Assembly: GCA_027069135.1 (NCBI GenBank)
Contig: JALXFE010000342.1
Span: 40,576 to 104,575, forward strand
Length of the DNA stretch: 64,000 nucleotides
Direction of reading: 5' to 3'
DNA from: Thermoanaerobaculia bacterium
GTDB lineage: Bacteria; Acidobacteriota; Thermoanaerobaculia; Multivoradales; JAHZIX01
The notes under the pieces are model-generated. The model saw only the letters and a list, made by a program, of their open reading frames with translations. It did no database searches and had not been told where the DNA came from. Made by a program: the position numbers and the translations under genes. Shown in pieces: positions 39,350 to 58,864 of the stretch; the stretch's first letter is position 1, and every line of letters starts with the position of its first letter.

Positions 39350-40411
39350 CTAACCGAAAATCAATCGTTTCCCGCCCTCGAGGGGCTCTACGGTACCGAC
39401 CACGCAGGCCTCAGGACTGCCCTCCTTCTTCAGCTCCAGGACCAGGCCGTCGGCCTGGTCCTCGGGCACTGCCACCATCAAACCACCGCTGGTCTGGGGA
39501 TCGACGAGCAGGCCCTCCTCCCAGCTGGCAAAAAACCGATCGAATCGAGCCTTGCCCTCGATCACCTTGCGGTTCGTCCCGTTGACTCCCGTCGTCCCTC
39601 CCCTTTGGTAAGCCTCGGCGGCTTCCGGCAAGAGCGGCAACGATCCGAAGTCGATCCGTAGGGCGCCCTCGGCTCCCTCCGCCATCTCGAGGGCGTGCCC
39701 GGCCAGACCGAACCCCGTGATATCCGTTGCCGCGTGGACATCGAAGCCGGCAAGAACCTCCGCGGCTCGCCGGTTGAGAGTCGTCACGGATTCAAGACAC
39801 CGGCTCATCGCCTCCGGCGAAATCTGGGCTTTCAGATTCGCGTTGAAGACTACACCGGAACCGATGGCCTTGGTCAAGATCAGCCGGTCGCCGAGCCGAG
39901 CTCCGGCGTTGGCCCAGAATCTCTCGGGATGGACTAAGCCGGTGACGCTCAAGCCGAATTTCGGCTCCTCATCTTCCGTGGTGTGCCCGCCCGCGAGAAC
40001 CGCGCCGGCTTCCGTAATCTTGCTGAGAGCTCCGGCGATGATCTGCCCGAGAACCTCCTGCTCCAACCTCTCCGAAGGGAATCCCGCCAGGTTCAAACAG
40101 GTGATAGGCCTCCCCCCCATGGCATATACATCGGAGAGGGCGTTCGCCGCAGCGATCTGGCCGAAGACATAGGGATCATCTACCGGCGGGGTGATGAAAT
40201 CCGCCGTCACGACGAGGGCGGTATCTTCGCTCAGGCGGTACACCCCCGCATCGTCACTGGTTTCGAATCCTACCAGCAGATTGGGGTCTTGAGCCTTCGG
40301 CAGGCTCCTCAATAACTCTCCGAGCCCGACCGGGCTCAATTTGGCCGCTCAGCCGCAAGTCTTGGCCAGACTGGTCAGCGTCGGCTTCTTGAACAAGGCT
40401 CCTAAAGCCAT
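39350..40411 (-). CDS. selD: Selenide, water dikinase (selenophosphate synthetase) with Sec
   Basis: Makes selenophosphate from selenide and ATP, the selenium donor for Sec-tRNA. The frame from ATG 40411 contains one in-frame TGA at 40351-40349, codon 21. Read as Sec, the N-terminus ends TSLAKTCGUAAKLSP, the known SelD active-site motif with Sec in the Cys17 position and the essential Lys three residues later. The total is then 353 residues, the normal length. The rest includes DDAGVYRL, TADFITPPVDDPYVFGQIAAANALSDVYAMG and AGGHT. AAAGGAG precedes the ATG. It lies 34 bp after selB. A gene caller starting after the TGA would miss the catalytic residues. Confidence 0.95.
40322..40337 (-). promoter_or_regulatory. 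SECIS-like hairpin of selD
   Basis: On the minus strand a perfect 6-bp stem GAGCCC/GGGCTC (40337-40332 with 40327-40322) closes the loop GGTC (40331-40328). The loop starts 17 nt after the UGA, the same spacing and the same loop as in the ArsC-like gene. Confidence 0.85.
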
Positions 40412-40445: not shown

Positions 40446-42416
40446 CTAAATTCCCCTCGAAACTGCGACCGATGATTGACGTAAAACCAGTCGCTCGTTG
40501 TCGACCCGTCGGGTCAGGCCCGTCGAGTCGAAATACTCCAGGAGGGGAATCGCCCATTTGCGACTGAGCCCGAATTTCTCTTTGAACTGAGCTACGGAAA
40601 ACCGTTGCCACGAACCTTCAAGAATCTCGTCCCGGACGGTACTCACCGTCGAAGTTGCGATCAAGGCTCCGTTGGGAAGCCGTCGCAGATGACCCTCTTG
40701 AGAAAGGAAGCGAAGGGCAGATTCCAGATCCTCCCTCTGCCCTGGGTAGTCTTCCTTCAATTCCCGTTCCCCCGGCGGATCGAAGCCGGCATCTTCGAAC
40801 CGACGCCGGAGATCCGCCACGAGCTGTGCCTCCCGACCCTTTAGCTGGACGGTTCGGCCCGGCAGGACCAGCAGGTCCCCCTCGGCCTCCAGAACTCCGG
40901 ATTCCTCGAGCCAGGACAGGTAGACACGGCTGACGTGCGGGGGAACCGGGGGCAGGATTCGCCGCAGAGCCTCGGCCTTGGGAATTCCCGGAGCGAGGCG
41001 GTCCCTCTCGAAATACTCCTTGAGAACCCGCTGAGCCCGCTCTCGGACCTGCTCGTAGACACTGCTTGCCAACCACCGGCAAGGGCTGTCCTGACTCTCG
41101 AGAATGGGACGTAGCTCTCCCGCCTCGGTCATCTCGTCCAAGAGTGCGGTGACTTGTTTCTCCTGCCTGCCCAGCCTTCTCGCCAGCTCCCCCGCCTCGA
41201 GCCCCATCTCCCGCCGGTCCCGCGCCCAAAGCAGGCTCGCTGCTCGGGAGTCACCGCAGAGAGCCTCTAACGCCGGGACCAGATCGAGACCGCGACGGCG
41301 CTGCCAACCCGGATCTAGAACCTCGCCGCCGCCGAGGGTGGTCGCCGGCGAAGGGCGGCGCAGAATGACCTTGTCGCCCCGAACGGCGACCATGGGATCC
41401 CGGAGTTTCACCTCCACGATTCCGCCCTCCCCGGGTTCGATCCGGGACGGACTCAAGGGTCGCACCATGCCCAGGACATCGCTTGAATAAAGATGCAATC
41501 GGATGGGGATCGGATCTTCCAAAGCCTCAGCGACATCGTCCAGGAGAGTGAGACGCAGGCAAAGACTGTGACTGGCGGCAAAGGCGCCGGTGCTGACCAG
41601 GCGCATTCCACGGGAAAGATGCTCGAGGCCGGTACCGGCGAGCTGTACCGACGTCCGCTCCCCGGCGAGAGCCTCTTCGCGAGCCTGCCCATGAACCTGG
41701 AGACTCCGGACCCGCACCGGCATCTGCGTCGGCAGGATCTCCAGAGCCTGCCCGCGCCGGATCCTCCCGGAGGCTAAAGTCCCGGTCACCAAGGCTCCCA
41801 AACCTTTCAGCAAAAAAGCTCGATCGATCGGTAAGTGCGGGGGATCGTCGAGATCCACAACGACTTGGCACTTTCCAGCCATTTCGACCAGAGCGGATCG
41901 CAGCTCTGCAATCCCTTCGCCGGTAACGCTCGAAACACGAACAATTCGGGAGCCGGAAAACGCAGAGCCCTCTAGAAACTCATCGACTTCGAGCTCAGCC
42001 AGCTCCAGCAGATCGGGAGTTACCAGGTCTACCTTCGTCAACGCGACGAGGGCGGAAGGGATCCCCAACAAAGAACATATCGCGACATGCTCGCGAGTTT
42101 GCGGCATGACTCCCTCGGTCGCCGCCACCACCAGGAGGACGCCCCGAATCCCGCCCATTCCTGCCAAAGCGTTATGCAGGAACCGCTCATGGCCTGGAAC
42201 ATCCACAAATCCTATCTGTAAATCTCCTTCCATCAACTGGGCGAACCCGAGGTCTATGGTGATACCTCGCTTCTTTTCCTCTTCCCAACGATCACAGTCA
42301 ACACCCGTCAGGACCCGTACCAATTGCGTCTTACCATGATCGATGTGACCGGCGGTACCGATCACAACTCGACGAAGATCTGAAATGGAAGTTGAGCTGG
42401 TAGGCAGTGGAGTCAC
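40446..42416 (-). CDS. selB: Selenocysteine-specific elongation factor
   Basis: A 656-residue GTPase that carries Sec-tRNA to UGA codons by binding the SECIS hairpin. G1 is GTAGHIDHGKTQLV, G3 FVDVPGHERF, G4 ALTKVDLV. Translation-factor domains 2 and 3 follow, and the C-terminal 250 residues hold four winged-helix modules ending GLSRKWAIPLLEYFDSTGLTRRVDNERLVL. Length is normal. It is between tRNA-Sec (37 bp upstream) and selD (34 bp downstream) on one strand, so it is probably co-transcribed with both. Confidence 0.96.
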   Translation of the reverse strand: MTPLPTSSTSISDLRRVVIGTAGHIDHGKTQLVRVLTGVDCDRWEEEKKRGITIDLGFAQLMEGDLQIGFVDVPGHERFLHNALAGMGGIRGVLLVVAATEGVMPQTREHVAICSLLGIPSALVALTKVDLVTPDLLELAELEVDEFLEGSAFSGSRIVRVSSVTGEGIAELRSALVEMAGKCQVVVDLDDPPHLPIDRAFLLKGLGALVTGTLASGRIRRGQALEILPTQMPVRVRSLQVHGQAREEALAGERTSVQLAGTGLEHLSRGMRLVSTGAFAASHSLCLRLTLLDDVAEALEDPIPIRLHLYSSDVLGMVRPLSPSRIEPGEGGIVEVKLRDPMVAVRGDKVILRRPSPATTLGGGEVLDPGWQRRRGLDLVPALEALCGDSRAASLLWARDRREMGLEAGELARRLGRQEKQVTALLDEMTEAGELRPILESQDSPCRWLASSVYEQVRERAQRVLKEYFERDRLAPGIPKAEALRRILPPVPPHVSRVYLSWLEESGVLEAEGDLLVLPGRTVQLKGREAQLVADLRRRFEDAGFDPPGERELKEDYPGQREDLESALRFLSQEGHLRRLPNGALIATSTVSTVRDEILEGSWQRFSVAQFKEKFGLSRKWAIPLLEYFDSTGLTRRVDNERLVLRQSSVAVSRGI

Positions 42417-42453: not shown

Positions 42454-42552
42454 TGGCGGAAGTGCATGGGAATCGAACCCACACCCCGTACAGCAACCTG
42501 CCGAGACTACGGTTTTGAAGACCGCGGGAGGCACCAGCCCCCGAGCACTTCC
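42454..42552 (-). tRNA. selC: tRNA-Sec (anticodon TCA)
   Basis: A 99-nt minus-strand tRNA with an 8-bp acceptor stem (GGAAGTGC with GCACTTCC), discriminator G and encoded CCA. The anticodon loop CTTCAAA has TCA at 42518-42516, which reads UGA. The T-arm (GGGTTCGATTCCC) is clear, and the variable arm is long, as in bacterial tRNA-Sec. The 5' base lies only 6 nt after a good -10 box. Confidence 0.96.
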
Positions 42553-42587: not shown

Positions 42588-42838
42588 TAGGTTTTTGGTT
42601 CAATTCTTCAAAATTCTACCGTCCGCTAGATCGAGAAGCTGGAGATTGAAATTCCATATACATTCGATCCGTCTCTCCAATGAGATTTCCGATAGTTCTT
42701 GCTACGGAACCTATCGACAATGCCATTACATTCGACGGAGATCGATCGGAAAAATCGATACAAACAACCCGAATTCAAATCGCCTACCTTTCTAAACGAA
42801 TATCTCCCTGGATTCGACCACGATGCCGCATAGGCTGC

Positions 42839-42844
42839 TACAAT
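42839..42844 (+). promoter_or_regulatory. Putative -10 box of selA
   Basis: TACAAT ends 9 nt before the selA ATG. A weak -35 (TCGACC, 42814-42819) lies 19 bp upstream. Transcription would begin within a few bases of the ATG, and no ribosome-binding site is seen, so selA may be translated from a leaderless mRNA. Confidence 0.4.
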
Positions 42845-42853
42845 TCAACGGCT

Positions 42854-44272
42854 ATGAAAGAAGGACACACGGCCCAGACGCTGTTGCGCAATCTCCCGAA
42901 GGTGGACCGCCTCCTCTCCTCGCCTCACTTCGTTGATCTCCTGGGGACCTACCCACGCCGGCAGGTCGTAAGCGAGCTGCGAGAAGCGTTGAATGACCTT
43001 CGGCAGGAAATCCTAGAGGATCAGCGATCGATGGAGGACCTAGACCCCGAGGCCATCCATGGCCGCGTCCTGGAACGGCTGGTCCGTCGAGCTCGTCCCT
43101 ATTACGAGCGGGTGATCAACGCCACCGGGGTGATCTTGCACACGGGCCTCGGCCGAGCTCCCATCGCTGCGGACGCCGCCCAGGCGCTCCGGGAGCTCGC
43201 GGTTCGCCCTCAGCGGATTGAAATCGACCTCGAGACGGGCCAGCGGGGAGGCCGGGATCGAGGCTGCGACCTGCTGATTCGTGAGTTGGTGGGATGCGAG
43301 GCGGCGACGGTGGTCAACAACAACGCCGCCGCCACAATCCTGATCCTCGCTGCTCTGGCCCGGGACCGCCGGGTACTCCTTTCCCGAGGGGAGTTGGTGG
43401 AGATCGGCGGCTCCTTTCGCATTCCGGAGATCATGAGCGAGAGCGGGGCCATTCTGGCGGAGGTGGGGACCACCAACCGCACCCACGAACAGGACTACCT
43501 CCGCGCCCTTGACGAAGACACCGGGATGATCCTCAAGGTCCACACCTCCAACTACCGGGTCGTGGGCTTTACCAAGGAAGTCGACATTCCCACCCTCGTC
43601 GCCATGGGCCAGGAACACGGAGTGCCGGTGGTCCACGATCTGGGCTCCGGGTGCCTGATCGATCTGGCGAGCCATGGCCGCCCCGGCGAAGACCTGGTGC
43701 GAGACTCCATCGCCGCCGGATGCGATCTCGTCTGCTTCAGCGGCGACAAACTCCTCGGGGGCCCCCAGGCGGGGATCATCGCCGGCCGCAAGGAAGCGGT
43801 GGACCGGTGCCGTCAGCACCCATTGCTGCGCGCCATGCGCCCGGGCCGACTCATCTACACCGCCCTCGAGGCGACCCTACGCCTCTACCTCGAAGATAGC
43901 CCCGTCCCTCGAATTCCCATCCTCGAGAAGCTCCTGGCGTCGGAGGGCGAGCTTCGCAAGAGGGCCCTACGACTGGCCCGGCAGCTGGATGAGATCGAGG
44001 GATACGAGATCGAAGCCGTCGAGAGCCTGTCCCAGGCCGGCAGTGGTTCCTTGCCGACCCGCGAATACCCAAGCTGGGCGGTGAGCGTGAAGCACCGAAA
44101 AGCCTCCGCCCAAGACCTGGCCCAGGCCCTGCGCAGCGGCCAACCCCCGGTTCTCCCTCGGATTCGCGACGATGTCGTCCTACTCGATCTGCGCACCGTA
44201 GAAGACGACGAATTCTCTCTCCTCAAAGCGCGCTTAAGGGAGATCTCTGCGGAGTCTCAGGGCGGGGCCTAG
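42854..44272 (+). CDS. selA: L-seryl-tRNA(Sec) selenium transferase
   Basis: A 472-residue PLP enzyme that turns Ser-tRNA-Sec into Sec-tRNA-Sec using selenophosphate. ATG 42854 begins MKEGHTAQTLLRNLPKVDRLLSSP, the normal N-terminal domain. Key parts are RARPYYERVINATGVILHTGLGRAPI, AATVVNNNAAATILIL and the PLP-lysine segment FSGDKLLGGPQAGIIAG. Length is normal. It is divergent from the tRNA-Sec/selB/selD operon and converges on a small minus-strand frame. Confidence 0.95.
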   Translation: MKEGHTAQTLLRNLPKVDRLLSSPHFVDLLGTYPRRQVVSELREALNDLRQEILEDQRSMEDLDPEAIHGRVLERLVRRARPYYERVINATGVILHTGLGRAPIAADAAQALRELAVRPQRIEIDLETGQRGGRDRGCDLLIRELVGCEAATVVNNNAAATILILAALARDRRVLLSRGELVEIGGSFRIPEIMSESGAILAEVGTTNRTHEQDYLRALDEDTGMILKVHTSNYRVVGFTKEVDIPTLVAMGQEHGVPVVHDLGSGCLIDLASHGRPGEDLVRDSIAAGCDLVCFSGDKLLGGPQAGIIAGRKEAVDRCRQHPLLRAMRPGRLIYTALEATLRLYLEDSPVPRIPILEKLLASEGELRKRALRLARQLDEIEGYEIEAVESLSQAGSGSLPTREYPSWAVSVKHRKASAQDLAQALRSGQPPVLPRIRDDVVLLDLRTVEDDEFSLLKARLREISAESQGGA

Positions 44273-45766: not shown

Positions 45767-46975
45767 ATGAGCCGGACCCTTTTTCTTTCTTTTCTTCTCA
45801 TCCTGGGAGCACCCCATGTCCTCTTCGGGTACGGCCTCGGCGTTGAAAACGACGAAGGCGCTACCGAAACGGATCTACAGATGACTTCGGACGCCCAGCA
45901 CATTCGGCGGATACGCGTCAACTGCGACCGGGGGCACACCATCGCCCGGGCCCTCCGAAGCACCGCTGAGAAGCTTCGGATCCATTTTCGAGGAACCTGC
46001 GAGGAGGACGTTCTCATCGAACGCGACGACGTCACCCTCAGCGGCTTCCGCGACGCGCCGACCATCATCGGTACCGTGACCGTTCGATCATCCTCCCGAA
46101 TCGTTCTTGAAGACTTCCTGGTTCGCGACGCACCCAACAGCGGCATCGAAATCTTCAACGGATCGGCCGCGACTCTCCGTCGCTTGGACGTTTCGCGGAC
46201 CGGAGCCCGGGGGATCAATATCCGCAACTCCTCGGCGGATTTAAGCGATATTCGGTCCGATTCGGCCGGCAACGTAGCGCTAGTGTTTCGCGGATCCCAG
46301 GTTCTTCTCACCGGATCCATTCTCGCCACGAACTCGCTCTTCGGGGTTTCGGTCACCGAGGGCAGCAGCGCCTTCCTGCGCGGAGGCTCCATCGATGCCA
46401 ACAACAACACCGTCGGGTTGACGGTGCAGATCGCCTCAGAGCTTGCCGTCGTCGAAGGTTCTGCCCTGTCCACCAACGACAATCTGAGCACCGGCATCTT
46501 CATCGGCGCTTCGGGGAACCTCTCCTTTGAGGAATCGACCCTCGAATCCCTGAACAATGGCTTTCTCGGACTTTGGATGAACCAATTCGCTTCCTTCGCT
46601 GGCTTTTCCGGAACCTCCTCCCCGGTGTTATTCGCCGGCAACGGCCTCGCGGGAGCCCTGGTGGAGAAAACATCTTCCGCTGAATTCGGTCCCGACAGCG
46701 TCTTCACGGACAACGGTTTCGGTGGTGTTCTGGTATCTGAAAGCTCCGTCGAGCTCACCGATGTCACCATCCGAGACAACGCCGTCCTCGATCTCAGCAT
46801 GCGCTTCGGCTCGACTGCGACCTTTGACGGCGAGGCGATCGATATCGGCCTTCCCATCGACTGCGACGACACCGTCCTGACGCGGGGCCCCCTCGCCTGT
46901 GCCGAAGGTGCGGCGGCGGTTTCCGTAGACCTTGCGCCCCTGAAGAATCTTCCCCGCCTCCCGACGATGCCCTGA
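45767..46975 (+). CDS. Secreted right-handed beta-helix protein
   Basis: A 402-residue protein with a signal peptide (MSRTLFLSFLLILGAPHVLFG). Repeated turns such as GIEIFNGSAATLRRLDVSRTGARGINIRNSSADLSDI form a parallel beta-helix (NosD/PbH1-like), with two late cysteines (DCDDTVLTRGPLAC). No catalytic motif of polysaccharide lyases is evident. GGAGG precedes the ATG. It is the first gene of the plus-strand run leading to the GMC, M16 and peptide genes; whether it belongs functionally is unclear. Confidence 0.7.
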   Translation: MSRTLFLSFLLILGAPHVLFGYGLGVENDEGATETDLQMTSDAQHIRRIRVNCDRGHTIARALRSTAEKLRIHFRGTCEEDVLIERDDVTLSGFRDAPTIIGTVTVRSSSRIVLEDFLVRDAPNSGIEIFNGSAATLRRLDVSRTGARGINIRNSSADLSDIRSDSAGNVALVFRGSQVLLTGSILATNSLFGVSVTEGSSAFLRGGSIDANNNTVGLTVQIASELAVVEGSALSTNDNLSTGIFIGASGNLSFEESTLESLNNGFLGLWMNQFASFAGFSGTSSPVLFAGNGLAGALVEKTSSAEFGPDSVFTDNGFGGVLVSESSVELTDVTIRDNAVLDLSMRFGSTATFDGEAIDIGLPIDCDDTVLTRGPLACAEGAAAVSVDLAPLKNLPRLPTMP

Positions 46976-47033: not shown

Positions 47034-47468
47034 ATGGACACCGCAACACTTGCCGCCGTCGCGGAATGTATCCTGCCTTCCGGCGACGGTGCCGGCGCCC
47101 GCGAGACCGGCGTCGCTCAATACCTCGAGACGACCCTCCGGGAGCCCTACTTCCACAAGCTCCGGGGACCCATCGATCAGGGTCTCGAACGGATTCGGGA
47201 CTTCTCCCGAGAGCGTTTTAGCAAGGATTTTCCAGCCTGTTCTCCTTCGGATCAAACGGCTGTGCTCGAGAGCGTCCAGGCGGGGGATGCCGACACACCG
47301 AAATTCCCGGCTCATTGGTTCTTCGAAATCTTCATTAGCCTCGTCCTCGAGGCCTACCTCTGTGACCCGGCCCGGGGCGGTAATCGGGATGCGGGGGGAT
47401 GGAAACACATCGGCTATTCCCCCCGTTTAGGTAGCGACAGCCCCTGTGTAGCGGAGGGGAGCCCATGA
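47034..47468 (+). CDS. Gluconate 2-dehydrogenase subunit 3-like protein
   Basis: A 144-residue protein with family features: an early VAECILPSGDGAGARETGVAQYLE and a late EAYLCDPARGGNRDAGGWKHIGY. Such small subunits accompany GMC-type flavoprotein dehydrogenases and are needed for their assembly or export. The stop overlaps the ATG of the GMC gene (ATGA), so the two are translationally coupled. No Tat signal is seen at this start. Confidence 0.8.
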   Translation: MDTATLAAVAECILPSGDGAGARETGVAQYLETTLREPYFHKLRGPIDQGLERIRDFSRERFSKDFPACSPSDQTAVLESVQAGDADTPKFPAHWFFEIFISLVLEAYLCDPARGGNRDAGGWKHIGYSPRLGSDSPCVAEGSP

Positions 47469-49108
47469 GAGACGTCCTGATCATCGGGAGCGGTGCCGGT
47501 GGCGGCTCCCTTGCCTTACAGCTGGCCCGCGCAGGAGTCGATGTCCTGGTCCTCGAGCGGGGTCCCCGGCTCAACCGCAGTGACTACGGTAGAGACGAAG
47601 TCGCCATGACCCGGCGGGATTTCTTCAAACCCAGTCCCTATGACGAGCCTCACGCCTTACTCAACCACGGGGAGGAGCATCCTATCCCCAGCGACCTGGG
47701 TTGGACGGCTACCTGTGTAGGTGGCGGGACGGTCATCATGGCGTCCTATCTCTACCGGCTTCATCCGGACGACTTCCGAATGAACGAGCTCTATGGTGAT
47801 TTTGAAGGTCTTGCGGACTGGACCTATTCCTATTCCGAGCTCGAACCTTTCTATTGCCAGGCCGAATGGGAATTGGGAGTCTCTGGCGTCGCGGGATCGA
47901 ATCCCTTCGAAGGACCTCGCTCCCGGCCTTACCCTATGCCTCCCATTCGATCCAATCGGTTGGCGCAGACTTTCGATGAGGCCTGCAGCCGCCTGGGACT
48001 CCACGCTTTCCCGACGCCCCGAGGCATCAACTCTCAAACCTACGACGGTCGGCCGGCATGCTCCTATTGTGAATCCTGCGCCGGATTCGGGTGTCCGACG
48101 GGGGCGAAGGCCAGTGCTCAAGAGACTCTCTTGGCCAAGGCGGAAGCGACCGGCAACTGCGAAATCCGACCGGAGTCAATGGTCCACCGGGTAACCGTGG
48201 GCCGAGACGGCCGAGCTACCGGCTGTGTCTACTCAGATGCCGAGGGGACGGAGCATCAGGTGCGGGCCCGGGTCGTCTGCGTGTGCTGCTCCGCCATCGA
48301 ATCTGCCCGACTGCTTCTTCTCTCGACATCTCCCTCCTTCCCGGATGGGTTGGCCAACGGCGGCGGTCGGGTGGGGAAAAATCTGCAGTTCCATAGTTAC
48401 TCCGGTGGCGTCGGCTATTTTCATTACGGTTCCAATGGTAACGAGATCTTCAAAGATCCCGCTCCTTTTCTCAACCGTTCAGTGATGGATCATTACTTTC
48501 TGCCGGAGGGAGTCGCTGACCTTCCGAAGGGTGGTGTCTACCGCTTTGGGATCCATTCCGATACCCCGCTTGCCAATGCCCAACGTATTGCGGAAGAACG
48601 ACCCCAACGACTCTGGGGACGAGAGCTCAAGGACCGCCTCCGCGGATATCTGCGGGACCAGAGGATCCTAGATTTCGAAGTCTTCGGCGATTTTGTCGCC
48701 AATGATCGAACCTTCGTTGAGCTGGATTCCGAGCATCGAGACCGGTGGGGAGAACCCATCGCTCGAATCCACCTCGACAATCTTTCCCTTCACGAGGTTG
48801 TCGGACGCTGGACGGCAGATCGTTGTTCCGAAATCCTAAGAGAAATGGGAGCTGACGAAGTCGCCCCCATCTCCATCGGGCAACCTGCCGGAATTCTGTC
48901 CTATGGCACTTGCCGAGCCGGCCGCGATCCGGAGACTTCCGTCTTGAACAGCTTCTGCCAGACCCATGAGGTCCCCAACCTCTACGTTGTCGATGGGAGC
49001 TTCATGCCGACCTCCGGAGGGGTACCGCCGACCCTGACCATCGTCGCCAACGGCTTTCGGACCGCGGACTCCATCCTGCGCCGCACACGGGCCGGAGAGC
49101 TCAGCTGA
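47465..49108 (+). CDS. GMC-family FAD-dependent oxidoreductase
   Basis: A 547-residue flavoprotein. FAD binding: DVLIIGSGAGGGSLALQLARAGVDVLVLERG at the N-terminus. WTATCVGGGTVIMASYLYRL is the GMC signature region, followed by a cysteine-rich segment (CSYCESCAGFGCPTGAKAS). The C-terminal end has NLYVVDGSFMPTSGGVPPTLTIVANGFR. GMC enzymes oxidise alcohols or sugars; next to two peptidases and two tiny peptides it could oxidise a peptide-derived substrate, a role inferred from context. It is coupled upstream to the subunit-3-like gene (ATGA) and downstream to the Sec M16 gene (TGATG overlap). Confidence 0.88.
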   Translation: MRDVLIIGSGAGGGSLALQLARAGVDVLVLERGPRLNRSDYGRDEVAMTRRDFFKPSPYDEPHALLNHGEEHPIPSDLGWTATCVGGGTVIMASYLYRLHPDDFRMNELYGDFEGLADWTYSYSELEPFYCQAEWELGVSGVAGSNPFEGPRSRPYPMPPIRSNRLAQTFDEACSRLGLHAFPTPRGINSQTYDGRPACSYCESCAGFGCPTGAKASAQETLLAKAEATGNCEIRPESMVHRVTVGRDGRATGCVYSDAEGTEHQVRARVVCVCCSAIESARLLLLSTSPSFPDGLANGGGRVGKNLQFHSYSGGVGYFHYGSNGNEIFKDPAPFLNRSVMDHYFLPEGVADLPKGGVYRFGIHSDTPLANAQRIAEERPQRLWGRELKDRLRGYLRDQRILDFEVFGDFVANDRTFVELDSEHRDRWGEPIARIHLDNLSLHEVVGRWTADRCSEILREMGADEVAPISIGQPAGILSYGTCRAGRDPETSVLNSFCQTHEVPNLYVVDGSFMPTSGGVPPTLTIVANGFRTADSILRRTRAGELS

Positions 49109-50430
49109 TGGCAGCACCCGGAGTCCTCCCGCAACCGCGAAGGCGCCCCGGCTGACCGGACGCTTGCTGGAACCTGTCGGTCGACAGGTTTCGTCTCGCC
49201 AACGGCCTTCGGATCGTCTTGCAGCCGGACCCACGGACTGCGGTGGTGGCGGTCCATCTGGGCCTCCCCGTAGGATCCGGGGATGAGCCCCAAGGCCTGA
49301 GCGGCCTAGCTCATGTCAGTGAACACCTGGCCTATGCCGGCCTGGCCCCGGAGAATCCTCGGGGCTTCCCGAGTCTGATCCAGAGCCGTGGTGGGATTCC
49401 TGGAGCGTTCACAGCTCATGATCGAAGCCATTACTTCGAGATTCTCCCGGCTGATCAGGTCACCCTCGGCCTGTGGATCGAAGCTCAGCGTTTGGGCCAT
49501 CGAGGGGCTCCTATCTCCAAGGAAATTCTAGACCGGGAACGGGCGGTTCTCCTTGAGGAAAGGGCCCAGCATGTGGAGAATCCACCCTACGGCAGTCTCT
49601 ACGAAGACCTCCACCGGGCCCTCTATCCCGCCCCGCACCCTTATCACCACTCCCCCATGGGAGACCGTGTAGGACTCGAGGCCGTGACTCCGGAAGATTG
49701 CAATGCCTTCTTGCAGGCCGGTCTGGCTGTCGACGGAGCAGTCCTCGTCGTCACCGGGAGATTCTCGTCTCGCGACCTGCGCAAGCAAATCGAAGAGCTC
49801 TTCTCGGAGCTTCCACGCCCTTTGCCACGGCCCGAGCCGGCCCACGAGCACATCCAGGCCGCCGGTGAGCGGTATGTCCGGCTCGTCCGTAAGGTTCCCT
49901 TCGTTCGCTCTATCCTAGCCTTCCGGATTCCGGGCGAGGGACGGTCGGGCTTTCACGCCGCAGCAGTTCTCGCTGCGCTCTTGGGTTCGGACAACGTCGG
50001 TCCCCTGCAGCAGCGCCTGGTCCAAGACAGCGGAGTCGCCCAATCGGTCACCGTCGGCCTGGTGGAGATGCGCAGAGCCAGCACCCTGGTGATCGATGCC
50101 ATGGCCGCCTCGGGGACGAGTCGTCGACGGCTCGAAGAGGAGCTCTCCCGAGCTGTCCAGGAGTTCCTGACTCAAGAGCCGTCGATCCAGGCCGTAGAGG
50201 CTGCCTGCCGGGATCGCCTGAAGGCCCTTGCCTGCTCCATCGACGCTCTAGATACACGGGCGGAAACCCTCGCTCGATTGGAGCTGTTGAAGCCCGGAGC
50301 GGGGCTACAGCAGGAAGTCGATCACTATCGATCTGTAGATGAGATGGCGATCAGGTCTCTCGTCGAGCGCAGCTGCCAACCGCGGCACCAGGTATTGCTC
50401 TCCGTCGAGGCTCCTGGAGACACCCGATGA
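49108..50430 (+). CDS. M16-family zinc peptidase with N-terminal selenocysteine
   Basis: The ATG at 49108 overlaps the GMC stop (TGATG), with GGAG 10 nt upstream. One in-frame TGA at 49153-49155 is codon 16. Read as Sec, the protein has 440 residues and an N-terminal extension ending RRRPGUPDACW, with Cys20 four residues on. Then comes the conserved first strand RFRLANGLRIVLQPDPRTAVVAVHLGL. There is no ATG, GTG or TTG between the TGA and this strand; the next start (TTG 49219) would cut into it. The active site HVSEH (His69, Glu72, His73) and downstream DRERAVLLEE are intact, so this is the catalytic chain. A perfect 8-bp SECIS-like stem follows the TGA. It is probably paired with the next M16 gene. 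Sec in M16 peptidases is not known to me. Confidence 0.88.
49171..49190 (+). promoter_or_regulatory. SECIS-like hairpin of the M16 gene
   Basis: A perfect 8-bp stem (AACCTGTC, 49171-49178, with GACAGGTT, 49183-49190) closes the loop GGTC (49179-49182). The loop begins 23 nt after the UGA. The loop is identical to those of selD and the ArsC-like gene. Confidence 0.88.
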
Positions 50431-51872
50431 ACGCCACCTTTGACGGACGATCCATCTCCGACCACTGCAAAGTTGGAGCCCGTGCCTGGCCAGCTGAGGA
50501 GATCCGTTTCTCGCCCCCTCCTTTCTCGTGCATCGAAATCTCCGAAGGTCTGCGAGTGATCCTCTGCGAGACCTCGACGACCCCGCTTCTGCATCTACAG
50601 GTGGCCTCTCCCACCGGTGCTGCTCTGGACCCTCCGGGCCTCGAGGGTCTGGCGGCCCTGAGCCTACCCATACTGCTTGAAGGAACGGCTCACCACGAAG
50701 CCTCCGACGTTGCTCGCCACTTTAGGCGACGGGGGGGCTCCCTGACAGCTGAGGCAACCTGGGATCTTTCCTTCCTCGGGGTCGAGCTCCTGGCGGACCG
50801 AGCCGAGGATTCCTTGGAACTTCTCGCAGAGTTGACCTTCGAACCTTCTTTCTCTCCCTCGGCCCTAAGGCGATGGGGGCAACACCGGCTGGCCGAGCTG
50901 ACCCATCTTGCCCATGATCCTGCCCAATCGATCGAAGACGCCCTGGCTCGGATCATCTTCGGCGACGAGCGGTATGGACACGGCCCCCTTGGCACCGAAG
51001 TTGGCGTCGCCTCCATCCAGCGGAAGGATCTCGAGACCTTTCATCAACGACGCTTCCTCAGCGCCGGTCTGATTTTCACCGCGGTAGGTTCTTTCGACCG
51101 CGAGGACCTGCTCCGCCGAATCGCCGACGCCTTCGCCCAATCTGGGGCGACCCACCCCGGCAGAGACACCCCACCAATGCCGCGCACCGTCGTCGGGCCT
51201 CCCCGCAATCACTTCATCGATCGGCCCGAAGCGCCCCAAACAGACCTGCGCCTGGGCTGTGCCACAGTCCCTCTGGATCATCCGGATATGCCCGGCCTCC
51301 AGCTACTCGCCGGTCTCCTCGGCGGCGGACCCTCAAGCCGTCTCGACCAAGCGCTCCGGGAACGACGCGCTCTGACCTATGGAGCTTTCAGCCGCATCGA
51401 AGCCCGACGGGGGGCCTCTCCCTGGATTCTCGGCGCCGCCGTATCGACGGGGCACACCGTCGAAGCTCTGGACGTGATCCATCGGGAGCTGCGGCGGCTA
51501 CGCCGGGAGCCGGTCTTAGACGCCGAGCTCACCCGCACCAAAGATCTGCTGATCGGCCGCGCTCAAACGGCCTTGCGCTCCGGCCGGGCCATCACAGGCT
51601 TCCTTCAGCATGTGGTGATCCACGATCTCCACACCGATCTCGAGGAACGCTACGACCGACAGCTTCGCTCTGTCAGCGCTCAACGATTGATGGAATTGGC
51701 GGCAGAGTATCTCGCCCCATCCAACCTGGCACAAGTGATCGCCGGCCCCGGAGCGCTCCTACGGGCACAGATGGAAGCCACAGATCCGGCCTTAAGAGTC
51801 TCTGAAACAGATTCGGTCTCTCAAATCTCAGGTTTTGTGGAGCAGTCGCAAATCCACGACGAAAGGAGGTGA
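50427..51872 (+). CDS. M16-family peptidase-like protein, non-catalytic partner
   Basis: A 481-residue M16 homologue starting with an ATGA overlap with the previous gene. At the place of the zinc motif it has GLAALSLPILLEGTAHHE, without HxxEH, so it cannot bind the catalytic zinc in the usual way. The C-terminal half keeps the substrate-binding R...Y motif (SSRLDQALRERRALTYGAFSRIEARR). Paired active/inactive M16 chains form heterodimers, as in other bacterial M16B pairs. Its last codons run into the ribosome-binding site and the first conserved repeat of the peptide-1 unit. Confidence 0.88.
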   Translation: MNATFDGRSISDHCKVGARAWPAEEIRFSPPPFSCIEISEGLRVILCETSTTPLLHLQVASPTGAALDPPGLEGLAALSLPILLEGTAHHEASDVARHFRRRGGSLTAEATWDLSFLGVELLADRAEDSLELLAELTFEPSFSPSALRRWGQHRLAELTHLAHDPAQSIEDALARIIFGDERYGHGPLGTEVGVASIQRKDLETFHQRRFLSAGLIFTAVGSFDREDLLRRIADAFAQSGATHPGRDTPPMPRTVVGPPRNHFIDRPEAPQTDLRLGCATVPLDHPDMPGLQLLAGLLGGGPSSRLDQALRERRALTYGAFSRIEARRGASPWILGAAVSTGHTVEALDVIHRELRRLRREPVLDAELTRTKDLLIGRAQTALRSGRAITGFLQHVVIHDLHTDLEERYDRQLRSVSAQRLMELAAEYLAPSNLAQVIAGPGALLRAQMEATDPALRVSETDSVSQISGFVEQSQIHDERR

Positions 51873-51877
51873 TATCC

Positions 51878-51958
51878 ATGACCAACAATCATTACGTTTA
51901 TGGCCCTACTTGAACGTGCAGCAGAGGTCCTCAAGCTCCAGTTTGGAAGCTTTGGTAA
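51878..51958 (+). CDS. Selenopeptide 1 (26 residues, Sec12, Cys14)
   Basis: AAAGGAGGTGAT, complementary over 12 bases to the usual 16S 3' end, lies before ATG 51878. The frame reads MTNNHYVYGPT, then TGA (51911-51913, Sec12), Thr13, Cys14, SRGPQ, and ends APVWKLW with TAA. The second copy, 378 bp downstream, keeps MT-N-HYVY, the UGA, Thr13 and APVWKLW with no indel over 81 nt; many differences are silent (ACC/ACT, AAT/AAC, CAT/CAC, CCT/CCG, CTT/CTC). Where this copy has Cys14 (TGC) the other has TGA, a Sec/Cys exchange. No signal peptide. Without readthrough the product is 11 residues. Probable role: precursor or mature redox- or metal-active selenopeptide; unknown family. Confidence 0.75.
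51933..51952 (+). promoter_or_regulatory. SECIS-like hairpin of selenopeptide 1
   Basis: AAGCT + CC (51933-51939) pairs with GG + AGCTT (51945-51946, 51948-51952), with a bulged A at 51947 and loop AGTTT (51940-51944). The loop starts 26 nt after the UGA, with G-U at loop positions 2-3 as in the GGTC loops. The stem lies inside the APVWKL codons. In copy 2 the outer A-T pair is G-C. Confidence 0.7.
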
Positions 51959-52255
51959 TCGAAGTCGAATAGGACTCTAGCGCCTTGGCGCAGGAAGTCT
52001 CGGATCGTTCTCGGCGCAAGCCTAAAGCGGTCAAAATGATAAGTATGCGGACACTGCGACTGCTCCACATATTGACTATGGACCCTAGAAAAAAGACGTC
52101 TACCTCAATAGGCCACCTTACGGAAACGACAGCATGCATAAAGTACGGTGACATCAAGAAATCGGAAGAACCTGATAGATCACCATGACGCCAAGAAGAA
52201 CAGGAATCGGCACTGTGGAGCAGCCGCAAATCCACAATGAAAGGAGGCGATAACC

Positions 52256-52336
52256 ATGACTAGGAACCACTACGTTTATGCTCCGTCTTGAACGTGAGGA
52301 TCGTCCCCGAGAGCTCCAGTTTGGAAGCTCTGGTAA
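52256..52336 (+). CDS. Selenopeptide 2 (26 residues, Sec12 and Sec14)
   Basis: AAAGGAGGCGAT precedes ATG 52256. The frame reads MTRNHYVYAPS, then TGA (52289-52291, Sec12), Thr13, TGA (52295-52297, Sec14), GSSPR, and ends APVWKLW with TAA. Thus Sec-Thr-Sec replaces the Sec-Thr-Cys of copy 1. The conserved ends, silent-site changes and Sec/Cys exchange support translation through both UGAs. One hairpin could serve both codons (26 and 20 nt to its loop). It follows copy 1 and precedes the ADOP permease gene. If UGA terminates, the product is 11 residues. Confidence 0.72.
52310..52331 (+). promoter_or_regulatory. SECIS-like hairpin of selenopeptide 2
   Basis: AGAGCT + CC (52310-52317) pairs with GG + AGCTCT (52323-52324, 52326-52331), with a bulged A at 52325 and loop AGTTT (52318-52322). 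It matches the copy 1 hairpin with a compensating A-T to G-C change. Confidence 0.7.
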
Positions 52337-52531
52337 TCGACCTAGAGTAGATCCTCTTCGCGCTTCGGTGCGTGAGGTGAAGGGTCGCCCTTGGAGGGGT
52401 CCACGGGCGATCAAAGAAACGTAAGAACGCAGGCACTACGGCTGCTCCATAGGCTATCTGCAAATGATGAACAGTTCCTATTTCCCCACGAAGGCTGCCC
52501 CTTCTTGAGAACCCGGCTTCACTACAATCGA

Positions 52532-52565
52532 GGCCTATTTCTTCGTTCTCGCGAAGAAATAGGCC
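52532..52565 (+). terminator. 14-bp perfect hairpin before the ADOP permease gene
   Basis: GGCCTATTTCTTCG (52532-52545) pairs perfectly with CGAAGAAATAGGCC (52552-52565); loop TTCTCG. It lies 25 bp before the ATG of the permease gene and just upstream of its GGAGG. There is no T-run, so it may be a partial terminator/attenuator or an mRNA-stabilising or processing site that sets peptide expression above transporter expression. Confidence 0.6.
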
Positions 52566-52589
52566 AGGCACCGGAGGTCATCGGCCGTT

Positions 52590-55019
52590 ATGATGAGAGA
52601 AATATTCTCGAGCCTGCAAACCGCAGCTCGTAGCCTTTACCGGGCACGATTCTTTTCCATCCTGGTGGTCCTGATTCTCGCCCTTGGCCTTGGGGCCAAC
52701 GCTGCGATTTTCGCAATCCTTAACGGGGTTCTCTTCAAGCCCCTCCCCTACCCAGCTTCGCAAGAGCTCCTCTCCATCGCCTCCGTACCGCCAGAGTCCG
52801 CCGGGGTCGCAACCGACGTCTCCGCTCTGGACTTCTTCGATTGGCAGAAGCAAGTATCGACTCTCAAGAGCCTGAGCGCCTATATGATCTTTACTCCGGT
52901 GCTCGAGGGGGACGGAGAGCCTGAGAACCTCAACGCTGCTGCGGTCGTCCCAGGATTCTTCTCGACCCTTCAAATGCACCCGCTCCTTGGGCGGACGTTC
53001 GTTCCTGAAGACGGCATCTTGGGTCGAAACAACTATGCCATCCTCACTTATGCACTCTGGCAGGGGCGCTTCGGCGGCGACCCGGAGGTCCTCGGCCGGA
53101 CGATTCAACTGGATGATGAGCTCTACGAAATCGTTGGTGTGGCAACGAAGGAGCACGAAATCCCCTCACCGAGAATTCAGATCTTTCTGCCGTTGGCTTT
53201 CGCTCCCGAAGGCTACAATCGGCAAGGCTTGGTCTTGACAGTCATCGGTCGGCGGAACCCTGGGGTCACGCTGGCTCAGGTACGCTCCGAAATGGACGCT
53301 CTCGCCCGAGCCTTTGAGCAGAAATACCCGGAAACCAATACCGGCCGAGGCGTACGGATCACTCCATGGCTCGAAACACGGGTTGGTGAATTCCGCTCTC
53401 CCCTCCTCGCCCTGCAGATCGCCAGCGGTGCTCTCCTACTGATGATCTGTCTCAACGTTACCGGCCTACTTCTGACACGGGTCTCGGCCAAACGCCGGGA
53501 GTTGGGCATTCGACAGGCCTTGGGCGCCGGCAGCTGGACCCTGGCCCGAGGCGCCATGGCAGAAAGCTGTCTTCTCGCCTCCGCGGGAGCGCTTCTATCC
53601 TGGCCCGTGGCGGCCTGGTTTCTCCGCATTCTCCTGGCCTTCACACCTTCGAAAATTCCCCGGATCGAGCTCATTCGAATCGACGGCAACGTGTTGTTGG
53701 TCTCGTTCCTGCTAGCCGCCACCGTGGCTGTAGCTTGCGGTTTGCTGCCAGCTCTAAAGAGCGCGAGGCGAGCTCCCAACTCGACCTTGAGGGGCATCTC
53801 CCCCGGAACAGCCGGAGCACGCCGTCCCCGAGTGGCCCTGGCTGGGGCCCTGGTTATCACCGAAGTGGCTCTCGCACTCTGCCTCCTGGTCGGTAGCGGT
53901 CTCTTGTTGCGCAGTCTCCGAGAGCTCGAAAAGGAGTCCAAAGGGTTCGATCCGGAGAATCTCTTGGTGGTGCAGTTGGCGCTGCCGCGGACGAGATATC
54001 CCGATGGCACACGCATCACGAGCTTCCAGCAGCGGCTCCTCGGGGAGCTGGCAGCTCTTCCCCAAAGCCTCGGTGCCGGGTTGGTCTCGGCCCTCCCTAT
54101 GCAAGGAGGGGGCAGCGACTTCGATGTCGAGGTCAGCGTAGAGGGAAGGGGTGACGAAGACCGGATCGAGGCCCGAAAGCACGCCAACGCTCGCATGGCA
54201 TCACCCGGGTATTTTAGGGCTATGGGAACACCTCTCCTGTCGGGGCGGGCGCTGAGCGAAGATGACGACTCCGACCGCCCGATCGTTGCAGTGATCAACG
54301 AAACCATGGCGAATCGCTTCTGGCCCGACGGACGGGCCGTCGGTCGGCAGATCAACATTCACCTCGGGGGAGGGCGTAGCTGCGAAGTCGTGGGCATCGT
54401 CGGCGACACCCGTTTCGACGGCCTCGGCCGCGCTCCCAAACCGGAGCTCTTTTTGTCCTACCTCCAACTCCCCACCCACTTCGCCTCGATCGTCCTGCGC
54501 ACCCGTTCCGCCCCACTGGATCTAGTCCCAGCGGTCAAGGAGAGGATCTGGCGATTGGATACCAAACTGCCCATCTTCCGTGCCATTACCATGGACCAAC
54601 TCGTCGAGCGGTCCGTGGCGGAGCGGCGCTTCAACCTGCGCCTGCTGGCGGCCTTCGGTGCCGCCGCTCTCCTGATCTCCGTCCTGGGCCTCTACGGGGT
54701 CATGGCTCGCCGGGTCGAAAGCCAGCGCCATGAGATAGGTGTCCGCATGGCTCTCGGAGCCGACCGCACAAACGTGCGGGGAGGTGTCCTGGGCCAAGCG
54801 ATGGTCCTGACCGGGACCGGGTTGATCCTCGGCGCCGGCCTGGCCCTGATCCTCGCTCGATCCCTCGAAGCGTTGCTCTACGGCGTCTCCACAACAGATG
54901 TACCGACGTTTCTCGGGTCTGCTCTGGCCCTCGCGGCAGCGGCCTTCCTCGGTGCCTTTCTGCCGGCAAGACGGGCCGCCAATACCGACCCAGCCCAGGT
55001 CCTCCGCGTCGGAAACTAA
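52590..55019 (+). CDS. ADOP-type duplicated FtsX/MacB permease
   Basis: An 809-residue membrane protein. An N-terminal helix (ILVVLILALGLGANAAIFAILNGVLFKPLPYP) is followed by a MacB-like periplasmic domain (about 50-250) and an FtsX block of three helices (about 280-400). A second periplasmic domain (about 440-670) and a final FtsX block (LLAAFGAAALLISVLGLYGVMARRVESQRHEIGVRMALGA) complete it. This is the acidobacterial duplicated orphan permease layout, which lacks its own ATPase gene; the ATPase would be encoded elsewhere. MacB-like systems move peptides or lipoproteins across the envelope, so export of the adjacent selenopeptides is plausible. Confidence 0.88.
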   Translation: MMREIFSSLQTAARSLYRARFFSILVVLILALGLGANAAIFAILNGVLFKPLPYPASQELLSIASVPPESAGVATDVSALDFFDWQKQVSTLKSLSAYMIFTPVLEGDGEPENLNAAAVVPGFFSTLQMHPLLGRTFVPEDGILGRNNYAILTYALWQGRFGGDPEVLGRTIQLDDELYEIVGVATKEHEIPSPRIQIFLPLAFAPEGYNRQGLVLTVIGRRNPGVTLAQVRSEMDALARAFEQKYPETNTGRGVRITPWLETRVGEFRSPLLALQIASGALLLMICLNVTGLLLTRVSAKRRELGIRQALGAGSWTLARGAMAESCLLASAGALLSWPVAAWFLRILLAFTPSKIPRIELIRIDGNVLLVSFLLAATVAVACGLLPALKSARRAPNSTLRGISPGTAGARRPRVALAGALVITEVALALCLLVGSGLLLRSLRELEKESKGFDPENLLVVQLALPRTRYPDGTRITSFQQRLLGELAALPQSLGAGLVSALPMQGGGSDFDVEVSVEGRGDEDRIEARKHANARMASPGYFRAMGTPLLSGRALSEDDDSDRPIVAVINETMANRFWPDGRAVGRQINIHLGGGRSCEVVGIVGDTRFDGLGRAPKPELFLSYLQLPTHFASIVLRTRSAPLDLVPAVKERIWRLDTKLPIFRAITMDQLVERSVAERRFNLRLLAAFGAAALLISVLGLYGVMARRVESQRHEIGVRMALGADRTNVRGGVLGQAMVLTGTGLILGAGLALILARSLEALLYGVSTTDVPTFLGSALALAAAAFLGAFLPARRAANTDPAQVLRVGN

Positions 55020-55030
55020 CCCGATAGACC

Positions 55031-56371
55031 GTGACCTCCTACCCTTCCGGTATCCGTACTTTCCTGGCCATCTGGACCGGCCAGCTGATCTCCGGAGTCG
55101 CTTCCGTCATGGCCGGATTCGCTCTCGGGGTCTGGGTCTACCAGGAGACCGGATCCGCAACCCGCTTTGCTCTGATCACTCTCTTCACGACCCTCCCGGG
55201 AATCGCCCTCGGTTCCCTGGCCGGCGGGCTGGTGGACCGCTGGAGCCGGCGAAAACTGATGATCGGTGGAGATTGCATCGCCGCCCTGGCCAGCCTCGCC
55301 CTGCTCTTCCTCCTCTTGCCGGACCCCCGCCTGCGCCCCTGGCATATCTACTGTGCCGCCGCGGTCGTTTCGGGATTTGCAGCCATTCAGGGCACAGCCT
55401 TCGAAGCCTCTGTGCCTCTCTTGGTGCCCGAACGTCACCTTGGGCGAGCCGCGGGCTTCTCCCAGATCTCCGCTGCCACCTCTCGGATCCTGGCCCCAGC
55501 TCTCGCCGGAGCCTTCCTCGTGTGGATGGGGCTCGCCGGGGTCCTAGCTCTCGACGTCGGTGCAGCCCTCGTCGCCGTCAGCATCTTGCTCATGGTTCGG
55601 ATCCCTCAACCGCCGGCACCGGCTGGCGACGTCAAGCTGGCCACTCTGATCGACGATGCAAGGTTGGGCTGGCGGTACATCTCGCTGCAGCCCGGGCTCC
55701 TTAGGCTGCTCCTCCTCTTCACAGCTGTCAACCTTGCAACCGGCATGGTGCAGGTACTTCTCGGCCCTCTCATCCTCAGCCTCGCGAACGCCAAGGCCTA
55801 CGGATTGGTGATCTCAGTCCATGCCTCAGGATTCTTCTGCGGTGGTCTCCTGATGAGCCTCACCGGCGGCCCTCAGCGGCGCGTGCGCTCTATCTTGAGC
55901 CTCCTCTTCGTCCTGAGCCTCGCCCTCGTCGTCTCAGGCCTGATGCCGAGCGTTGCGACCATCGCCGGGGCCTTCTTCTGCTTCATGTTCGCCATGCCCA
56001 TCATCTTCGGAACCAGTCAGGTCATCTGGCAAAGGAAAGTTCCGCCGGAGCTGATGGGAAGGGTATTTGCCATCCGTAAGCTGGTGGCTCTCTCGGCGAC
56101 GCCGGTCGCCATCCTTGCCGCGGGACCGTTGGCCGAATTCGTCTTCGAGCCCGCCCTACACCCGGACGGGGTCCTGGCGGCCAGCCTCGGCCCGATCTTC
56201 GGTACCGGCCCCGGCCGGGGTATCGGGGTCCTCTTCGCCGCTCTCGGCCTCTTCATCGCCCTGGTCACCGCCCTGGCCGCCACCCATCCGGGCCTGCGCT
56301 CTCTCGAGGAGGAGCTGCCGGACGGGATCACCAAAGAGGTTCCCCGGGCCGACTCAGGCACCTCTTCCTGA
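55031..56371 (+). CDS. MFS transporter
   Basis: A 446-residue protein from GTG 55031, 11 bp behind the permease gene. It shows about 12 hydrophobic segments, with the MFS loop motif GGLVDRWSRRKLMIGGD between helices 2 and 3. This resembles the enterobactin-exporter (EntS) and macrolide-efflux branch of MFS proteins. Position suggests it belongs to the same transcription unit as the peptides and ADOP permease and exports a small product or precursor; substrate unknown. Confidence 0.85.
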   Translation: MTSYPSGIRTFLAIWTGQLISGVASVMAGFALGVWVYQETGSATRFALITLFTTLPGIALGSLAGGLVDRWSRRKLMIGGDCIAALASLALLFLLLPDPRLRPWHIYCAAAVVSGFAAIQGTAFEASVPLLVPERHLGRAAGFSQISAATSRILAPALAGAFLVWMGLAGVLALDVGAALVAVSILLMVRIPQPPAPAGDVKLATLIDDARLGWRYISLQPGLLRLLLLFTAVNLATGMVQVLLGPLILSLANAKAYGLVISVHASGFFCGGLLMSLTGGPQRRVRSILSLLFVLSLALVVSGLMPSVATIAGAFFCFMFAMPIIFGTSQVIWQRKVPPELMGRVFAIRKLVALSATPVAILAAGPLAEFVFEPALHPDGVLAASLGPIFGTGPGRGIGVLFAALGLFIALVTALAATHPGLRSLEEELPDGITKEVPRADSGTSS

Positions 56372-56470: not shown

Positions 56471-56587
56471 CTACCATAGGGTCCTTCGCCTTGTGGGTTG
56501 TCCCAGGGTCAGCCAATCCTCAGTCTCTGCGAGTAGTATCCTTCCAATACGATGGAGCTCCGGCCAGGAAAGGAACTGGAACCCAAG

Positions 56588-57922: not shown

Positions 57923-58864
57923 ATGGCTACAAAACCGAGATACATCCCAAATCCGGGGCAACTCGTCCTGGTCTCCCAACGCGCTTTCCAAGCCCGATTC
58001 CTCCTCCGCCCCTCGGAGAGGGTGAATAAGCTGATCATCGGCGTCCTCGCAAAGGCCCAAGAAAAATACGCGGTGCCGTGCTTTGCACCTACCTATCTCT
58101 CGAACCATGGGCACCTTCTCCTGCAATTTGACAACGCCAAACAGCAGGCGGACTTCATGAACTTCGTCGCGAGCAACATCGCCCGCGAGGTTGGTAGGGC
58201 TCATCGCTGGGACGGGAAGTTCTGGCACGAACGCTTCGCCCCTTCCGCTGTGGCGCCGGATGAGGCCTCTCAAATCTCCACCCTGAGGTATGTCCTGGAG
58301 CAAGGTTGCAAGGAGAATCTGGTCCTACGACCGCAGGACTGGCCGGGAGTACATGCCGCGAAGATTCTCCTTTCAGGTAGGAATCCGAAGGGTATTGGGG
58401 TCGACCGGACAGCCCTCTACGAGGCTCGACGACGCGATGGTGGCAAAGGCAAGGTACGAGAGGTCGATTTTGAGGAAGTGGTTGAGCTCAAGATCTCTCC
58501 ACTCCCGTGTTGGGCGCACCTGTCGCCGGAAGAACAGTATCGGCGGATCGCCGACTTGATCGGACACATCGAAGAAGAGACCAAGACGCGGCATTCTCGC
58601 GAAGGAACTTGCCCTCTGGGCCGCCGAGCTGTCCTGCGTCGAAAACCGGACTTCCGCCCCAAGACTGCCAAGAGGAGCCGGCTTCCGCTGGTCCGCTCGA
58701 CACGAAAAGCGACTCGTCGACGATATCTCGAGATGTACCGAATCTTCGTGGCCGCGTACCGAGCAGCAGCCCAGAAACTGAAAGAAGGCCACCTCGATGT
58801 CGAGTTCCCGGAGGGTTGTTTCCCTCCCCGGCGGCCCTTCGTGGAAGCTTGCGGCCCGCCTTAG
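57923..58864 (+). CDS. RAYT-like transposase (HUH, Y1 family)
   Basis: A 313-residue IS200-like Y1 transposase of the REP-associated type. The HUH pair is His62 and His64 in LSNHGHLLLQF; the catalytic Tyr is about residue 123 in TLRYVLEQGCKENLV. The C-terminal 120 residues are basic and unlike classical IS200 enzymes, as expected for single-copy domesticated RAYTs. An inverted-repeat element begins 2 bp after its stop codon, and a homologous element is at 20.7 kb, so it is probably the enzyme that moved them. Confidence 0.8.
   Translation: MATKPRYIPNPGQLVLVSQRAFQARFLLRPSERVNKLIIGVLAKAQEKYAVPCFAPTYLSNHGHLLLQFDNAKQQADFMNFVASNIAREVGRAHRWDGKFWHERFAPSAVAPDEASQISTLRYVLEQGCKENLVLRPQDWPGVHAAKILLSGRNPKGIGVDRTALYEARRRDGGKGKVREVDFEEVVELKISPLPCWAHLSPEEQYRRIADLIGHIEEETKTRHSREGTCPLGRRAVLRRKPDFRPKTAKRSRLPLVRSTRKATRRRYLEMYRIFVAAYRAAAQKLKEGHLDVEFPEGCFPPRRPFVEACGPP

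Follow-up and report, generated by a model that had tools for sequence, protein, structure and literature searches.

Candidate Sec-containing RiPP precursors encoded by two tandem 26-residue peptide genes with in-frame UGA codons in a RiPP-like operon

The known pathways of PQQ (PqqA, PqqF/G) and mycofactocin (MftA, MftG) start from a very short precursor and involve an M16 pair or a GMC oxidoreductase. The selenobacteriocin family, TIGR04081, is defined by a radical SAM maturase nearby, and the source cited for it, Lewis et al. 2021, reportedly deals with thio(seleno)oxazole RiPPs. VhuU has a mature size of about 25 residues.

The prokaryotic selenoproteins are counted as 119 families and subfamilies in PMC13188914. 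Table 1 of that paper lists Selenobacteriocin (TIGR04081, SGUG, two Sec, from RiPP work), as well as VhuU, a very short Sec polypeptide. Given the former entry, RiPP precursors with Sec are already on record; given both, the preliminary description of this DNA went too far in saying that genetically encoded selenopeptides so short were undescribed. Excerpts of PMC8960859 and PMC10885120 describe M16B heterodimers, composed of an HxxEH subunit and an R/Y partner, which mature lanthipeptides.

The window, i.e., the whole stretch of 64,000 nucleotides that was analysed, contains two short genes on the forward strand: gene 1 at 51878..51958 and gene 2 at 52256..52336. Each has 27 codons including the TAA, the two align with no indel, and their predicted 26-residue products, written with UGA as Sec, are MTNNHYVYGPTUTCSRGPQAPVWKLW (UGA at 51911-51913) and MTRNHYVYAPSUTUGSSPRAPVWKLW (UGAs at 52289-52291 and 52295-52297). 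Their calculated masses, for unmodified peptides with 80Se, are 3056.33 Da and 3105.31 Da, respectively, and each oxidised pair would lower these by 2.016. The ribosome-binding sites, also on the forward strand, are GAAAGGAGGTGAT at 51861..51873, which overlaps the stop codon of the M16b gene, and GAAAGGAGGCGAT at 52239..52251. The paired frames, these sites, the UGA at codon 12, Thr13 and the common end APVWKLW-TAA were all found where the preliminary description had placed them, and so was the change at codon 14 from TGC in gene 1 to TGA in gene 2, a Cys/Sec exchange between paralogues. Its description of the differences as largely silent or conservative holds only in part: 22 of the 81 bases differ, and although six of the 14 differing codons are silent and one is the Cys/Sec exchange, the other seven change the residue. 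It also overlooked that each ORF lies inside a larger duplicated unit with complementary ends, and that the operon context is RiPP-like. As judged from the sequence, both ORFs are still best read as short peptides that contain Sec. The frame kept across the UGA, the hairpin and the codon-14 exchange speak for this reading, yet no homologues that keep the downstream frame, whose absence the preliminary description had itself named as contrary evidence, were found in the genomes or databases searched.

The Sec machinery genes lie 7.6 to 12.5 kb upstream of the peptide pair, and all those previously reported for this window were located: selA at 42680..44272 (+), the tRNA-Sec gene at 42454..42552 (-), selB at 40446..42416 (-) and selD at 39350..40411 (-). 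The last is itself a predicted selenoprotein gene with a tentative start codon. SelD reads LAKTCGUAAKLSP through the UGA at 40349-40351, and a GAGCCC-GGUC-GGGCUC hairpin follows 17 nt on. The table-11 ORF list begins selD downstream, at TTG. A peroxiredoxin-like gene elsewhere in the host genome (L057, G000:C123, about 325-699) reads GAWUPFC through a UGA, which is followed 20 nt later by the hairpin GCAGCU-AGUUG-AGCUGC, with an AGUU loop. Given the CGUAAK of SelD and the GAWUPFC of the peroxiredoxin-like protein, the host very likely possesses genuine selenoproteins. Sec decoding appears usual in the group, since selA was matched in 138 of 147 genomes (the host's own included), in 131 of them above the family cut-off. 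When the selA regions of 20 relatives were searched for SelD genes, toward a SECIS consensus, one more was found.

The computed fold of both peptide genes contains a SECIS-like hairpin, AGCUCC-AGUUU-GG(A)AGCU, located at 51929..51955 (+) in gene 1 and at 52307..52333 (+) in gene 2. The AGUUU loop lies 26 nt after UGA12 in both genes, against 17 nt in SelD and 20 nt in the peroxiredoxin-like gene, and 20 nt after UGA14 in gene 2. One stem pair is changed on both sides between the genes, from A-U to G-C (columns 98 and 117 of the two-copy RNA alignment), and the change is silent on the 3' side. According to the bacterial SECIS rule, as excerpted from PMC13188914, the hairpin lies 16-37 nt after the UGA, its loop has 3-9 nt with a G in the first two bases, and its energy is at most -7.5. 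Both peptide genes agree with this rule, with -10.4 and -14.1 kcal/mol at 26 and 20 nt; since 66% in a sample of 600 window TGAs also pass, the rule was dropped as uninformative. A stricter rule, set after the loops were seen (loop [AG]GU, at least 6 pairs, 16-28 nt), retains 22 of the 1,447 TGAs in the window, including the three peptide UGAs and that of SelD, and it retains the peroxiredoxin UGA as well; the stems in question have 6-8 bp.

The ease with which the general rule is passed also leaves room for UGA12 to be a true stop. The two genes would then encode 11-residue leader peptides, MTNNHYVYGPT and MTRNHYVYAPS, and the hairpins would act as an attenuator or Sec-status switch for the ADOP permease gene, whose start lies 253 nt after gene 2. 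The substitutions between the genes bear on this in both directions. With UGA scored as Cys, frame +0 retains 0.78 of its self BLOSUM score and the other five frames 0.36-0.60. Frame +0 is also the best of six both before the UGA (0.74) and after it (0.77, against 0.35-0.63 in the other frames), which argues against a stop there, as do the TAA at the same codon and the codon-14 TGC/TGA exchange. In 20,000 trials that reassigned these substitutions to other sites carrying the same base, 0 reached the observed frame +0 score and 29% created a stop; such permutation does not preserve how the substitutions cluster, which makes the frame comparison the safer control. Third positions account for 12 of the 22 differences (P=0.033), yet this bias is significant only before the UGA (6 of 9, P=0.042) and not after it (6 of 13, P=0.24), as a stop would lead one to expect. 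The segment after the UGA is short and mostly within the hairpin, and the conservation of APVWKL, which sits inside it, may thus reflect the RNA rather than the peptide. On the other hand, a consensus scan finds no terminator-like site, an attenuator in two tandem copies would be odd, and the gene at the same place in the related G044 operon described below is a full 44-residue frame. Overall, a true stop at UGA12 seems doubtful. Genes on the minus strand, where ORFs are open at 51906-52235 and 52260-52571, were rejected, this being the least conserved frame (0.36).

Homologues of the peptides were sought widely. Translated searches found none in the other 146 of 147 genomes, nor in the 395 other genomes of a 396-member phylum sample; none was found in IMG/VR or by an exact pattern scan of GTDB contigs, and neither these translated searches (147 and 396 genomes) nor the GTDB scan found a Cys homologue for codon 12. 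Hence, the selenopeptide family rests on two paralogues. With E allowed up to 10, NCBIfam returned 0 families for either peptide, a search in which HMMER filters may miss very short queries. Two GTDB pattern hits were dismissed, as neither continues to APVWKLW. Protein matches at E up to 1 in 89 of the 147 genomes, with a best value outside the own genome of 0.011, were taken as chance, and so was a match in G450 (E of 0.0043, query residues 9-26, with no UGA).

The genes around the pair all lie on the forward strand. Upstream are those of a right-handed beta-helix protein (45767..46975), which has a 32% relative in the G044 cluster; a gluconate 2-dehydrogenase subunit 3-like small subunit (47034..47468, PF13618); a GMC-type FAD oxidoreductase (47465..49108), likely a tailoring enzyme; the M16a peptidase (49219..50430), with HVSEH, the catalytic HxxEH, at residue 32; and the M16b peptidase (50427..51872), an R/Y-type partner that lacks HxxEH and has RRALTY at 313. 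Downstream are those of an ADOP-family permease (52590..55019), a possible exporter with relatives near the G044 and G299 clusters, and of an MFS transporter (55031..56371), a putative cluster member. The ADOP family suggests Acidobacteriota as the group. A perfect 14-bp hairpin with a 6-nt loop and no T run is located just before the ADOP start, at 52532-52565. Beyond the MFS gene are those of a protoporphyrinogen-oxidase-like flavoprotein with an amine-oxidase fold (56552-57841, +) and of a REP-associated tyrosine transposase-like protein, below the family cut-off (57923-58864, +).

The M16a and M16b proteins fit an M16B heterodimer, in which one subunit carries HxxEH and the other lacks it and has the R/Y pattern. 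By annotation, the layout is that of a RiPP cluster: a short precursor gene stands beside peptidase, tailoring enzyme and exporter genes. A Pfam scan of 26 window ORFs found no class-defining maturase (YcaO, LanM, asparagine synthase or radical SAM), and a YcaO with a ThiF/SagC partner beside the precursor was not found in the window; one YcaO is encoded elsewhere in the own genome (C297). M16 proteins are common, M16b being matched in 59 of 59 genomes (own included), and the ADOP gene is weak evidence, given that a stretch of 16.5 kb in G044 holds two ADOP relatives. Neither selenopeptide shows a clear leader or visibly resembles the G044 peptide in sequence.

In genome G044, the operon order is the same as in the window: beta-helix, small subunit, GMC (59%), M16 and M16. 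The next gene there encodes a Cys-rich 44-residue peptide, MDNETLIEIERLYDSADELDAEAVCPCGFCMCACVICIIPNDDQ, and its 20-nt start region, GAAAGGAGGTGATATCCATG, is identical to that of gene 1. This gene is followed by ThiF, YcaO, nitroreductase and ADOP genes. The YcaO reaches 313.7 bits with the SagD model (cut-off 219.25), and the ThiF is above the Pfam ThiF cut-off and below those of the SagC models. The whole locus, G044:C616 (L013 11073-19756, L091 29-3106), is a cluster of the YcaO/ThiF type and includes a core peptide with six Cys, a GMC, an M16 pair and an ADOP. The start motif GAAAGGAGG[TC]GAT-N1-6-ATG, defined after seeing the three genes, has 3 matches in 745,255 bases on both strands (the window plus chosen, non-random loci), namely genes 1 and 2 and the G044 peptide gene.

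GMC proteins of more than 50% identity were found at five other loci (G044:C616, G023:C25, G023:C50, G000:C182 and G299:C1) in overlapping searches of 59, 148 and 396 genomes, the own genome included, with at most 9 and at most 3 candidates per genome scored in the last two, respectively. RiPP-type clusters are present at all five: one of the YcaO/ThiF type, two of the lasso type and two with LanM. The lasso type is indicated by an asparagine synthase and a transglutaminase-like protein at G023:C25 and, by tblastn only, at G299:C1; LanM is present at G023:C50 and G000:C182. At the latter locus, in the own genome (L016 10118-16013), LanM and an O-methyltransferase accompany a second copy of the GMC subfamily. 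At G023:C50, a small Cys-rich peptide, MKKQDVIRAWRDGEF...TGGCSYGTFCPTSAICSPCPPKHC, is encoded beside LanM (L015, about 3913-4227, -) and is probably its precursor. The G023:C25 region (L014) contains a CRISPR-like array of GTCTGCCCCGCGCACGCGGGGATCGGCC repeats. ThiF/YcaO, lasso and LanM markers were absent by tblastn at nine loci with GMC proteins of 35-38% identity from the 396-genome search, a set that includes the small contigs L114 (4.7 kb) and L115 (5.4 kb) and also L112, where the GMC gene lies 1.1 kb from the contig end. No GMC relatives were confirmed in GTDB contigs.

Given the operon shared with G044 and the RiPP-type clusters at five of five other close GMC loci, genes 1 and 2 are most likely, on genomic grounds, Sec-containing RiPP precursors. 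The full reading, in which peptides with UGA read as Sec occupy the precursor slot of a RiPP-like operon and give rise to a selenium-containing modified peptide, is probably correct. SelB and tRNA-Sec would act via the hairpin in the 3' half of each ORF, and Sec would be inserted at codon 12, and in gene 2 also at codon 14. The U-T-C/U core could then either be oxidised by the GMC flavoenzyme together with its small subunit, or close to give a selenenylsulfide or diselenide. The M16a/M16b pair, one catalytic and the other the R/Y partner, would trim the precursor, and the ADOP permease would export the trimmed peptide. Of these steps, we infer as most likely that the GMC oxidises the core, that the M16 pair trims the precursor and that the ADOP acts as exporter. 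The long-range stem around each gene may insulate or release the short mRNA, such that it would be made in excess over the enzymes. It is rather unlikely that the cluster instead yields a selenium analogue of PQQ or mycofactocin, a small redox cofactor or signal released from a ribosomally made Sec peptide, for which the GMC flavoenzyme would oxidise the U-T-C/U core and the M16 pair would digest the remainder.

The RNA itself has to be considered as well. Unit 1 spans 51836..52069 (+) and is closed by a 15-bp stem (51836-51850 with 52055-52069); unit 2 spans 52214..52451 (+) and has a homologous closing stem with one U-A to C-G change, the unit ends pairing over 13-15 bp. Applied to the two copies, RNAalifold gives 56 pairs, seven of them with changes on both sides. 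The long-range stems of genes 1 and 2 are the strongest (39 and 35.5; next 30) among 41 window ATGs with an SD-like site, and the stem arm is located at -42, -43 and -43 from the ATG in gene 1, gene 2 and the G044 gene, respectively. Taken alone, the G044 stem is weak, being matched or exceeded in 9 of 2,000 shuffles, and 2 of 39 other SD-led ATGs in the window are as high. A covariance model of the two units has its best hit in 80 kb at the start of the G044 peptide gene (E=0.0027), and G044 was not reported by the genome-wide search under strict filters. With perfect inverted ends of 15 nt, a length of about 235 nt, the seven pairs changed on both sides, and the REP-associated transposase-like gene (below cut-off) 5.5 kb away, the units resemble a structured non-coding RNA or a MITE-like element, in which the ORFs would be accidental. 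We consider this improbable, given that no third copy was found in the own genome, that the covariance model matched nothing in the other 146 of 147 genomes under strict filters, and that Rfam yielded no family at gathering score except tRNA-Sec, with only a sub-threshold match in the unit region. Moreover, the substitution pattern is frame-specific, both copies have a near-perfect, correctly spaced ribosome-binding site, and the same start region precedes the G044 peptide gene. Slightly less probable still is that the genes encode free redox or metal-binding selenopeptides with unrelated operon neighbours, an idea in keeping with the CxC-like UTC/UTU motif, the unclear leader and the lack of a class-defining maturase beside the genes among the 26 ORFs scanned, but at odds with the gene position and operon order common with G044 and with the RiPP-type clusters at all five other close GMC loci.

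If genes 1 and 2 are indeed Sec-containing RiPP precursors, Sec would be used in RiPP chemistry beyond the selenobacteriocins, the one such family in the excerpt of PMC13188914, and precursors of 26 residues would carry up to two Sec in a U-T-U core. Ordinary gene finders could miss such precursors, since table 11 ends each gene as an 11-codon stub. Given the RiPP-type clusters at five of five other loci found, UGA-aware mining around the GMC subfamily is feasible at once. Among the literature matches listed, in which subscription journals are thinly covered, there was no report of a Sec precursor in an M16/GMC cluster.

In comparison with the known systems, the pair resembles the selenobacteriocins (TIGR04081) in the genetically encoded Sec of a presumed RiPP precursor, with two Sec in the table entry for that family, yet its motifs are PSUTU and PTUTC rather than the SGUG given there. 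Neither peptide matches the TIGR04081 HMM, and no radical SAM enzyme was found among the scanned window ORFs. This last point also sets the locus apart from PQQ and mycofactocin, as does the absence of an NCBIfam match for the selenopeptides. VhuU differs in being an archaeal hydrogenase subunit with a UxxC motif, and is not a RiPP. The lanthipeptide proteases Bcn-gP1/2 and PttP1/2, as described in the excerpt of PMC8960859, have in common with the M16 pair the HxxEH subunit, the R/Y partner and a likely role in precursor processing; here, however, the pair lies inside the cluster. The TOMM-type YcaO/ThiF cluster of G044 differs in its ThiF, YcaO and nitroreductase genes, which were not found in the window, and in its peptide, which has Cys for Sec and likely a 24-residue leader, yet it shares with the selenopeptide locus the five upstream genes, the position of the peptide gene, the 20-nt start region and the ADOP downstream.
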